Source of the DNA: Glycomyces sp. TRM65418 | GTDB taxonomy: Bacteria; Actinomycetota; Actinomycetes; Mycobacteriales; Micromonosporaceae | Length of the DNA: 64,000 nt | Direction of reading: 5' to 3' | Assembly: GCF_019710475.1 (NCBI RefSeq) | Contig: NZ_JAJFAX010000008.1 | Coordinates: forward strand, 62,001 to 126,000 | In this document: one piece after another, positions 17,677 through 20,114 of the stretch | How positions within the stretch are numbered: position 1 is the first letter of the stretch | Layout: each line of letters starts with the position of its first letter | Made by a program: the position numbers and the translations under genes | Notes under the pieces: model-generated | The model's database searches: none | What the model was told of the DNA's origin: nothing | Seen by the model: only the letters and a program-made list of their open reading frames with translations

Positions 17677-17706
17677 TTTACAGGCGCGACCCGATCAGGA
17701 TAGATT
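17677..17706 (+). promoter_or_regulatory. Promoter of the first LPMO gene
   Basis: TTTACA (17677-17682), an 18-nt spacer and TAGATT (17701-17706). The -10 begins 44 nt before the ATG, giving a leader of about 30 nt. The second LPMO gene has the same layout. Confidence 0.7.
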
Positions 17707-17731
17707 GATGTATGTCAATTTCCCTTCATTT

Positions 17732-17745
17732 TGGGAGCGCTATCA
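17732..17745 (+). promoter_or_regulatory. CelR/CebR-like operator overlapping the ribosome-binding site
   Basis: TGGGAGCGCTATCA matches 12 of 14 positions of TGGGAGCGCTCCCA, the palindromic box of the LacI-family cellulose regulators CelR (Thermobifida) and CebR (Streptomyces). GGGAG inside it is also the Shine-Dalgarno sequence, and its last base is the A of the start codon. Confidence 0.7.
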
Positions 17746-18815
17746 TGTTCAAGCTGACACGACGTCGCGTCAGAACCGCGATCGTCGTCATCGCCGCGGC
17801 GGCCGCCGCCGGCGCCTCCGCGTTCTTCTTCGTCCAGCCCGCCGCGAGTCACGGCACGGCCACCAGTCCCCCGGCCCGGCAGTACAGCTGCTGGGAGCGC
17901 TGGGGCGACGACCACCTCAACCCCGACATGGCCGACACCGACCCGATGTGCGCCCAAGCCTGGCAGGCCAACCCCAACACCATGTGGAACTGGAACGGCC
18001 TGCTGCGCGAGGGCATGCAGGGCCAGCACGAGTCCCGCATCCCCGACAACCAGCTCTGCTCGGGCGGGCGCGCCGAAGGCGGCCGGTACAACTCCCTCGA
18101 CGCCGCCGGGCCCTGGCACACGACGGCGCTCCCGAACAACTTCACGCTGCACTACGAGGACACCGCCACCCACGGCGGCGACTACTACTGGGTGTACGTG
18201 ACCAAGCAGGGTTACGACGCGAGAACCGACTCCCTCGACTGGGCCGACCTCGAACGGGTCGTCTCCACGGGCGTCTACCAGCCCGGCGAGAACGTCGACA
18301 TCCCCGTCAGCGCCCCCGGACGCACCGGCCACCACATCGTCTACGTGGTCTGGCAGGCCAGCCACATCGACCAGGCCTTCTACTCCTGCTCGGACGTCTG
18401 GTTCGGCGGAGGCGGTCCGAGCGAGGAGCCGACGGACCCGCCCACCGACCCGACCGACCCTCCGACGGACCCGACCGACCCGCCCACCGACCCGACCGAC
18501 CCGCCTGCCGACCTGAGCTGCGCGGCCACCGCGTCGATCAACGGCTGGGACTCCGGGGCCACGGTCACCGTCACGGTGTCGAACACCGGGACCCGGACCG
18601 TCCACTCGTGGATGCTCCACTGGACCTGGGCGGCGAACTCCGCGGTCACGGTGAACAACATCTGGAACGCCGAGCACTCCACGATGGGCGGCATGCAGAT
18701 GGCCGAACCGACGTCGTGGAACCAGACGATCGAACCGGGAGGCTCGGTGTCCTTCGGCTTCAACGTCAACGGCTCGCTGAGCTCGATGCCGGCCATTGAC
18801 TGCCTGCCCTCGTAG
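17745..18815 (+). CDS. Secreted AA10 lytic polysaccharide monooxygenase with CBM2 domain
   Basis: Copper enzyme that oxidatively cleaves crystalline cellulose and/or chitin outside the cell. A basic N-terminus and hydrophobic stretch form a signal peptide (1-35). Cleavage after AAS leaves H36 as the mature N-terminus, one arm of the histidine brace; H143 (THGGDYY) is the other, and F212 (AFYSC) is the likely axial aromatic. The catalytic domain (36-223) closely resembles Thermobifida AA10A/ScLPMO10B-type enzymes (CWERWGDDHLNP, MWNWNGL, LCSGG, CSDVWF). A Pro-Thr-Asp linker (about 226-255) leads to a CBM2 (257-354). ATG 17745 is chosen from the SD and signal peptide; total 356 residues. Confidence 0.95.
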   Translation: MFKLTRRRVRTAIVVIAAAAAAGASAFFFVQPAASHGTATSPPARQYSCWERWGDDHLNPDMADTDPMCAQAWQANPNTMWNWNGLLREGMQGQHESRIPDNQLCSGGRAEGGRYNSLDAAGPWHTTALPNNFTLHYEDTATHGGDYYWVYVTKQGYDARTDSLDWADLERVVSTGVYQPGENVDIPVSAPGRTGHHIVYVVWQASHIDQAFYSCSDVWFGGGGPSEEPTDPPTDPTDPPTDPTDPPTDPTDPPADLSCAATASINGWDSGATVTVTVSNTGTRTVHSWMLHWTWAANSAVTVNNIWNAEHSTMGGMQMAEPTSWNQTIEPGGSVSFGFNVNGSLSSMPAIDCLPS

Positions 18816-18840
18816 GGCACGGCGACTCAGGAACGCGGCG

Positions 18841-18871
18841 CGCGGTCCCGGCTCCGGCAGCCGGGACCGCG
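18841..18871 (+). terminator. Terminator between the two LPMO genes
   Basis: A perfect 13-bp stem (CGCGGTCCCGGCT with its complement) closes a 5-nt loop, 26 nt after the first LPMO stop. It implies that the two LPMO genes are transcribed separately, in agreement with each having its own promoter. Confidence 0.8.
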
Positions 18872-18939
18872 CGCCGCGCCGTCGTGCGGCGAAGCCGAGG
18901 AATTCGACGGGTCGGCCGTCAAAAATCCCCCCACAGGTG

Positions 18940-18969
18940 TTTACATGCGAACCCGAAAGCAGTTACATT
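18940..18969 (+). promoter_or_regulatory. Promoter of the second LPMO gene
   Basis: TTTACA (18940-18945), an 18-nt spacer and TACATT (18964-18969). The spacing from -10 to ATG (44 nt) is identical to that of the first LPMO gene, and the leader sequence is partly conserved. Confidence 0.7.
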
Positions 18970-18994
18970 GAAAGTCCTCAATGTTCCTATATTT

Positions 18995-19008
18995 TGGGAG
19001 CGCTAACA
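18995..19008 (+). promoter_or_regulatory. CelR/CebR-like operator at the second LPMO start
   Basis: TGGGAGCGCTAACA matches 12 of 14 positions of the cellulose-regulator box. Again it contains the Shine-Dalgarno GGGAG and runs into the A of the ATG at 19008. The preceding TATTTT/CATTTT context is shared with the first copy. Confidence 0.7.
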
Positions 19009-20114
19009 TGACCAATGTCAGACAACCGGGCCTCCACCGGCTCGGCCTCCGAGGCCTCATCGTCCTCGTCATCGCGATGGTCGCGGCCGGCACCGCCGCG
19101 GTCCTCACCGTCCAACCGGCCTCCGGCCACGGCACCTCCATCGCCCAGCCCTCGCGGCACTACGGCTGCTGGGAGCGCTGGGGGTCGGACTTCCAGAACC
19201 CGGCCATGGCCCAGGAAGACCCCATGTGCTGGGCCGCATGGCAGCACGACACCAATGCCATGTGGAACTGGAACGGCCTCTACCGGGAGCAGGTCGGCGG
19301 CGACCACCAGGGCGCCGTCCCCGACAACCAGCTCTGCTCCGGCGGGCGGACGGGCGGCACCCGGTACGCCGCCCTCGACGAGCCCGGGCCCTGGAAGACC
19401 ACGCCGGTGAGCGCGAACTTCACGTTCACCAACTGGGACCAGGCCAACCACGGGGCCGACTACTACCGGATCTACGTCACGAAGCAGGGCTACGACGCCC
19501 GGACCGACGCGCTCGACTGGGCCGACCTCGAACTGGTCGAGGAGACCGGGCGGATCCTCCCCGGCGAGGGCCGCGCGCCCTCGTCCGGCGGCGGCACCCT
19601 CGTCGACATCGACGTCTCCGCGCCCGGTCGCTCGGGCCACCACGTCGTGTACATGATCTGGCAGGCCAGCCACTTCGACCAGTCGTTCTACTCGTGCTCG
19701 GACGTGTGGTTCGGTGCGGGCGGACCGGCCGAGCAGCCCACGACCCCGAACGAGCCCACCGACGACCCGACGAGCGACGAGCCCACCGAGGCGCCCACCA
19801 CGGGCGGCCCCGAGGGGATCGCCTGCGCCGCGACGGCCACGGTGAGCACCTGGGGTTCCGGCGGCACGGTCACCGTCACGGTGTCCAACACCGGCACCCG
19901 GGCGATCAACAACTGGATGCTCCACTGGACGTGGCCGTCGGGGGTGACCATGAGCCAGGTCTGGAACGCCGAGCACTCGGTGATGGGCGGGGTCGAGATG
20001 GCCGCGCCCGTGTCCTGGAACAAGTCCATCGCCACGGGCGGGTCGATCGAGTTCGGCATGAACGTCTCAGGGACGCTGGGCGGCGCCCCGGCGTTCGAGT
20101 GCTTCCCGAGTTAG
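19008..20114 (+). CDS. Secreted AA10 lytic polysaccharide monooxygenase with CBM2 domain, second copy
   Basis: 368 residues, a tandem paralogue of the first LPMO. Signal peptide 1-40 (cleavage after ASG) exposes H41. The second brace His is H148 (ANHGADYY) and the axial aromatic is F227 (SFYSC). Landmarks CWERWGSDFQNP, MWNWNGLYREQ, LCSGG and CSDVWF agree with the TfAA10A-like clade. A 12-residue insertion (about 185-197, Gly/Ser-rich) before the last beta-strands is absent from copy one and could change the substrate surface. A Pro/Thr/Glu linker (about 240-268) precedes CBM2 (about 270-366). The likely roles are complementary action on cellulose/chitin, induced together. Confidence 0.95.
   Translation: MTNVRQPGLHRLGLRGLIVLVIAMVAAGTAAVLTVQPASGHGTSIAQPSRHYGCWERWGSDFQNPAMAQEDPMCWAAWQHDTNAMWNWNGLYREQVGGDHQGAVPDNQLCSGGRTGGTRYAALDEPGPWKTTPVSANFTFTNWDQANHGADYYRIYVTKQGYDARTDALDWADLELVEETGRILPGEGRAPSSGGGTLVDIDVSAPGRSGHHVVYMIWQASHFDQSFYSCSDVWFGAGGPAEQPTTPNEPTDDPTSDEPTEAPTTGGPEGIACAATATVSTWGSGGTVTVTVSNTGTRAINNWMLHWTWPSGVTMSQVWNAEHSVMGGVEMAAPVSWNKSIATGGSIEFGMNVSGTLGGAPAFECFPS

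Follow-up and report, generated by a model that had tools for sequence, protein, structure and literature searches.

Two LPMO genes lie in the window, i.e. the whole 64,000 nucleotide stretch of the Glycomyces sp. TRM65418 genome that was analysed, and both are preceded by a CelR/CebR-like box which contains the Shine-Dalgarno (SD) sequence and runs into the start codon. LPMOs are copper enzymes that attack cellulose, and Glycomyces lives in soil. The question is whether these nucleotides also serve as the binding site of a repressor, through which the two genes would be jointly controlled by cellobiose, or whether the box was kept only because it is a good SD. Both possibilities had been raised in the original prediction.

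The identical promoter layout described there, TTTACA-18-TANATT, was present in both genes (Table 1), with 44 nt from the beginning of the -10 hexamer to the start codon (ATG at 17745 in gene 1 and at 19008 in gene 2). In the source genome the exact arrangement TTTACA-N18-TANATTGA was found at these two LPMO genes only, and one match with a single mismatch occurred elsewhere. Among the 41 box-bearing LPMO upstream regions of the genus described below, TTTACA stands exactly at -68 in 21, and a hexamer agreeing with it in at least five of the six positions stands there in 26. Since the -10 hexamer occupies -44 to -39, the transcript should, judging from the promoter sequence, begin near -32, and the box would extend from about +20 to +33. 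As such a leader has only about 32 nt, an operator at this place would coincide with the ribosome-binding site. In six loci of the third group of LPMO genes (L013, L080, L090, L106, L107, L112) a second, inverted box was seen at about -92, so that the promoter lies between two predicted operators.

Table 1. Coordinates of the promoter, operator and coding features of the two LPMO genes within the window.
Feature	Position	Strand	Remark
-35 TTTACA, LPMO gene 1	17677..17682	+	exact hexamer in the sequence
-10 TAGATT, LPMO gene 1	17701..17706	+	18 nt after the -35 hexamer
ATTGA-N6-TCAAT dyad, LPMO gene 1	17704..17719	+	overlaps the -10 hexamer and the inferred transcription start
CelR-type operator (predicted) TGGGAGCGCTATCA, LPMO gene 1	17732..17745	+	contains the SD GGGAG; last base is the A of ATG
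LPMO gene 1 (AA10 + CBM2, 356 aa)	17745..18815	+	Pfam LPMO_10 2.9e-46, CBM_2 9.2e-18
-35 TTTACA, LPMO gene 2	18940..18945	+	exact hexamer in the sequence
-10 TACATT, LPMO gene 2	18964..18969	+	18 nt after the -35 hexamer
ATTGA-N6-TCAAT dyad, LPMO gene 2	18967..18982	+	same arrangement at the second gene
CelR-type operator (predicted) TGGGAGCGCTAACA, LPMO gene 2	18995..19008	+	contains the SD; last base is the A of ATG
LPMO gene 2 (AA10 + CBM2, 368 aa, 10-residue insertion)	19008..20114	+	Pfam LPMO_10 2.1e-45, CBM_2 2.3e-19

The description of the box was likewise borne out at both genes. TGGGAGCGCTATCA and TGGGAGCGCTAACA each agree with the classical palindrome TGGGAGCGCTCCCA in 12 of the 14 positions (two mismatches), positions 2-6 (GGGAG) form the SD, 7 nt separate it from the ATG, and the last base of the box is the first of the start codon. 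Such a box is not rare in the window, where five matches with at most three mismatches were found and 7.7 were expected, and the core TGGGAGCGMT is not enriched genome-wide (43 matches, 41 for the reversed control). A chance match was considered; in the window alone the box is indistinguishable from one, and this explanation was ruled out by position and conservation.

Conservation was followed in 22 genomes of the genus, the source genome included. The pattern TGGGAGCGNTNNCATG gave 44 matches in 21 of the 22 genomes and none in the control. By row comparison 37 of these matches are LPMO starts, two are starts of CBM2 + Cip1-like genes and five are others (L081, L102, L114, L094 and one in G001). 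The two CBM2 + Cip1-like genes with the fused box are found in two Glycomyces genomes (L115:1001-1016 and L116:1001-1016). The variants TGGGAGCGATGCCATG and TGGGAGCGGTGACATG occur at L102 and L094; in L102 a GH1-like start follows a short way downstream, and in L094 the frame that opens at the ATG resembles a shifted relative. The upstream DNA was long enough in 59 LPMO candidates. Of these, 15 that are less than 70% identical to the mature window proteins were excluded (eight from other genera, L122 and six of a distant paralogue), and the LPMO of G020, at a contig edge, was outside the scored set. The 44 scored upstream regions are all distinct in their last 70 nt, and TGGGAGCG stands at exactly -13 in 41 of them; the invariance of its eight columns among these 41 follows from the definition, as TGGGAGCG was the criterion. 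Positions 11-12 of the box vary. In eight tandem LPMO pairs at one locus, the identity between the paralogues is 100% at box positions 1-8, 94% at 9-10, 44% at 11-12 and 88% at 13, while the flanking identity is 30-65% (spacer 36%, -10 hexamer 60%, -38 to -31 30%, TCAAT(G) 65%, -24 to -14 60%). The remaining three of the 44 genes (L109, L110, L111) carry ordinary, strong SDs instead of the box, which is thus not essential. TGGGAGCG at -13 was present in none of the eight best LPMO matches outside the genus. In the distant LPMO paralogue the box does not reach the ATG but ends 21 nt upstream of it, and AGAGGAG is present as a separate sequence.

The absence of a CelR/CebR LacI-family gene from the genome had been named among the observations that would refute the prediction. 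Such an orthologue was found (L026, G000:C35:85208-86248). It closes an operon which, according to Pfam, encodes a solute-binding protein, two permeases, a GH1 beta-glucosidase and the LacI-type protein (cebEFG-bglC-celR), and which is divergent from a CBM2-GH48 cellulase; the substrate of the celR-linked ABC transporter is probably cellobiose. The 21 other genomes of the genus have orthologues of 84-97% identity to it. Among solved structures the nearest relative of CelR is 5ysz (E 9e-107), which we take to be the T. fusca CelR, and the stretch AGVGRGTVSRVINGS of the HTH is identical.

The GH48-cebE intergenic region could be taken from 20 of the 22 genomes, because G005 and G015 break off too early; L293 and L308 contain only part of it. 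In all 20 genomes examined TGGGAGCGATACCA stands before cebE, about 165 nt upstream, and it is the exact 14-mer which is fused to the start of LPMO3 in the source genome. Another box, TGGGAGCGCTTC with two variable bases after it, is found in 19/19 genomes whose sequence extends that far, always at exactly 252 bp from TGGGAGCGATACCA. This distance corresponds to about 24 helical turns and would suit DNA looping. Altogether three CelR-type boxes were seen between GH48 and cebE (L307 G000:C35:78700-81100; L289-L306), with spacings of 64-65 bp (18/18) and 252 bp (19/19).

Further boxes near cellulases, for which a scan had been proposed in the original prediction, were found both in this region and before CBM2 genes. 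Starts were assigned, by eye and SD score, to 21 of the 22 CBM2 matches in the source genome, and TGGGAGCGMT lies within 300 bp upstream of 11 of these 21 genes (0.06 expected), or of 9/19 when the window pair is left out. In these nine genes the box and the start are about 26-130 nt apart (measured from a reference end that shifts by 9 nt from one strand to the other); with the starts as assigned, none of the CBM2 genes of the source genome other than the window pair has a fused box. The presence of the box at the cebE operon and at the CBM2 genes indicates a regulatory element of cellulose genes, which the LPMO genes carry in a special place.

The promoters contain a second element as well. 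TC[AG]AT stands exactly 8 nt past a -10-like hexamer in 41 of the 44 LPMO upstream regions (TCAAT in 34, TCGAT in 7). About 411 kb of source-genome sequence contained 16 other promoter-like matches, none of them with the element at that place. In a looser form it is found also in the three LPMO genes without CelR box, L108 being the sole miss. The perfect dyad ATTGA-N6-TCAAT is present in 26/44 upstream regions. Since it occurs 1-11 times per genus genome (one control match across all 22), other genes carry it too; and since the right arm TCGAT is found without a left arm ATCGA, the dyad symmetry of the element is not strictly maintained.

Several explanations of the fused box have to be weighed. 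That it is nothing but an optimal SD with its spacer, kept for translation and bound by no repressor, fits the good ribosome site formed by GGGAG at 7 nt from the ATG, and also the strong SDs of other sequence in the three LPMO genes without box. However, an SD has no need of T1, C7 and G8, which are kept in 41/44 upstream regions, or of T10 (40/41), and C13 is kept too (38/41). The same 14-mer stands before cebE, and in the nine CBM2 genes the box lies at distances where an SD role is impossible; the idea of a box kept merely as a good SD thus fails, and we consider it very unlikely. Control at the RNA level, with the partly palindromic box folding over the SD or with a palindrome broken to prevent such folding, could be seen in the isolated box, where the perfect palindrome folds with -6.1 kcal/mol and seven imperfect variants with 0 to -3.2 kcal/mol. 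Within the leader, however, the predicted openness of GGGAG was 0.15 for the native and 0.14 for the perfect box (means, n=40), the native one being more open in 12 of the 40, which makes this type of control extremely improbable. The suggestion that the palindrome had been disrupted so that the SD stays accessible was rejected, since the leader folds disagree with it and the non-fused Glycomyces boxes are imperfect too.

A box belonging to another LacI-family paralogue (e.g. C23:148452, C23:71980 or C11:6902) instead of the CelR of the ceb operon would be compatible with the 43 LacI-family HTH matches of the source genome, three of which lie in proteins 42-48% identical to CelR. Against this, the ceb operon, which encodes CelR, and LPMO3 share the identical 14-mer, and CelR has kept the HTH stretch of 5ysz, where the paralogues read GVSRATVSRVVNGQ, GVSRGTVSRVLNGK and GVSRGTVSRVLNGQ; a paralogue is therefore rather unlikely. 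The reading we prefer is that the box is an operator of CelR lying immediately after the promoter, that cellobiose would free it of CelR, and that it coincides with the ribosome-binding site of the LPMO genes; on the sequence evidence this is probably the case. The position of the box, its conservation throughout the genus, its recurrence at the ceb operon and the cellulases and the presence of CelR are all observed. Counted against the CelR operator were the match of only 12/14 positions, the flat genome-wide frequency of TGGGAGCGMT, the 3/44 LPMO genes without box and the number of LacI HTH matches. Joint control of the two genes by cellobiose is still the best reading, supported at the sequence level by the CelR gene and the boxes before cellulases.

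As for the transcription start, the binding of CelR, the mode of repression and the response to cellobiose, we infer the following course. CelR, a LacI-family, cellobiose-sensing repressor, would sit about 20-33 bp past the start of the LPMO transcript, and once bound would hinder promoter escape or the first phase of elongation. The cellobiose set free as cellulose is degraded would release CelR, and both LPMOs would be switched on at the same time as the cellulases, bglC and the ceb transporter. In E. coli, lac O1 is bound by a LacI-family repressor just downstream of the transcription start; it serves neither as ribosome-binding site nor as start codon. Repression by blocking and release by cellobiose would follow from the CelR/CebR biology given in PMC3377646 and PMC4890002.

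In the parts of Anderson et al. (2012, PMC3377646) that concern the T. fusca and actinobacterial CelR regulon, the LacI repressor is encoded with a cellobiose transporter and a beta-glucosidase, cellobiose is the effector of T. fusca CelR, and TGGGAGCGCTCCCA boxes stand before cellulases and CBM33 (LPMO) genes. The Glycomyces system is similar to these in the linkage of the LacI gene with a transporter and a GH1 gene and in the boxes before cellulases and LPMOs. Perfect palindromes are common in the CelR regulon (11 in N. dassonvillei), and sites with one mismatch were accepted as possible sites (PMC3377646), whereas no perfect palindrome was present among the 75 listed of 78 Glycomyces sites with at most one mismatch (22 genus genomes; control total 44). 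The closest precedent is the CebR box TGGaAGCGCTCCCA of S. scabies bglC, which is placed at -13 in Table 1 of PMC5332605 and at -14 in PMC4890002. According to PMC4890002, CebR binds this box in EMSA, and cellobiose and cellotriose inhibit the binding. The bglC box lies over the SD and the start codon, in the same register as the LPMO boxes or one base off. However, bglC is a beta-glucosidase gene, of another family, while the box of the S. scabies LPMO gene celS2 is at -177 (PMC5332605) and not at -13 as in the Glycomyces LPMO genes. The parts of PMC5332605 and PMC4890002 dealing with bglC do not mention that the box and the ribosome site overlap. The literature search yielded no paper on CelR in Glycomyces or on the present overlap of operator and ribosome site; the papers on the regulation of T. 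fusca E7/E8 were not among its results, and an earlier notice is possible.

A fusion peculiar to Glycomyces was ruled out by GH3 and GH1 starts in other genera. In the Micromonosporaceae, 257 of 300 genomes had matches of the fused pattern. Among the 30 first-listed family loci (31 matches), 17 have an open frame of less than 100 codons and four are starts of GH3 beta-glucosidases. Five others have long frames with, by eye, a likelier start downstream (L390, L402, L405, L407, L418), and four more (L393, L403, L406, L410) may start at the box or elsewhere. At L409 (- strand, 1501) the start of a protein-kinase gene may lie at TGGGAGCGCTCACATG; the Pfam kinase match of its product begins at residue 17. 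GH3 starts at the fused box were found also in 11 of 20 further family loci chosen for imperfect boxes, nine of them called by motif and two (L449 and L452) by eye. All these GH3 loci (L397, L401, L413, L417, L449-L454, L459, L461-L463, L467) are from the genus g51 of the same GTDB family, the genome of L417 aside; the GH3 identity comes from Pfam for the two scanned and from the N-terminal sequence for the others. The g51 genes have the box in the same fused register as the Glycomyces LPMOs and differ in the enzyme encoded, and no description of their fused box was found.

The search of the class with TGGRAGCGCTCCCATG gave matches in 50/394 genomes, and a fused start was established in none of the 30 loci examined; long frames were present at L422 (GH6-CBM2, Pfam), L432, L434, L436, L439, L442 and L448. 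Eight further TGGAAG matches included two GH1 starts on the opposite strand, the other six not being established as starts. These GH1 genes, in two genomes of the genus g88 (G340, G443), start at TGGGAGCGCTTCCATG, which is the same box read on the strand of the GH1 gene (L472:1503-1518, + strand; L473, - strand). Outside the genus the bare pattern is thus a poor guide, most examined matches not being shown as gene starts. The overlap of operator and ribosome-binding site seems to have arisen more than once. Since the operator holds GGGAG 7 nt from the ATG and ends in CA, the addition of TG makes a start signal, which would explain a possible repeated fusion.

According to the original prediction the two enzymes may be complementary, as they differ by an insertion before the last strands. 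The insertion is real: protein 2 has 10 additional residues, and the overall identity of the two proteins is 59%. In both, PF03067 (LPMO_10) is covered from 1 to 183 of 183, indicating a full-length AA10 domain, and the CBM2 is C-terminal. The mature N-terminal His, which follows the signal peptide, is H36 of protein 1 (by alignment with 4oy6) and H41 of protein 2 (with 5opf), both alignments beginning at chain residue 1. These two are the nearest solved structures, 4oy6 for protein 1 and 5opf for protein 2. Complementarity within the pair was not supported, as each protein matches both of these solved cellulose LPMOs strongly. The best solved match of the distant paralogue (L200) is 4oy7. The group of 4oy6 and 5opf presumably oxidises C1 and C4, and 4oy7 presumably C1 only, so that complementarity would sooner be expected of the distant paralogue with the window pair than inside the pair. 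A second, intragenic operator was also considered, since both genes have TGGGAGCGCT within their coding sequence (CWERW). It was rejected, as its presence in 18 of the 40 LPMOs with WERW is about that given by codon usage (0.81 x 0.47 = 0.38); four further LPMOs have WDRW.

With S. scabies bglC as the precedent, what is new here is the LPMO case, the genus-wide register, the recurrence at GH1 and GH3 genes of other genera and the position-locked TC[AG]AT. Tentatively, and at somewhat less than even confidence, the CelR operator may be regarded as a ready-made ribosome-binding site that was repeatedly welded to the starts of cellulose genes in actinobacteria (the Glycomyces LPMOs and the Cip1-like gene, the g51 GH3, the g88 GH1 and S. 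scabies bglC), with a second factor at the Glycomyces TC[AG]AT adding an input to the LPMOs. The prediction is also that the Glycomyces operator has drifted from the classical palindrome, so that searches for perfect CelR sites would miss it. On this view a transcription factor site and a translation signal would share their bases throughout the genus and across several enzyme families. If the repressor indeed reads one 14-mer as DNA and the ribosome reads it as RNA, neither induction nor translation strength could evolve independently of the other, and the LPMO genes would be a clean natural case for testing the trade-off between DNA-level and RNA-level constraints on one sequence. For the organism itself, the prediction is that the Glycomyces LPMOs would belong to a cellobiose-induced regulon.
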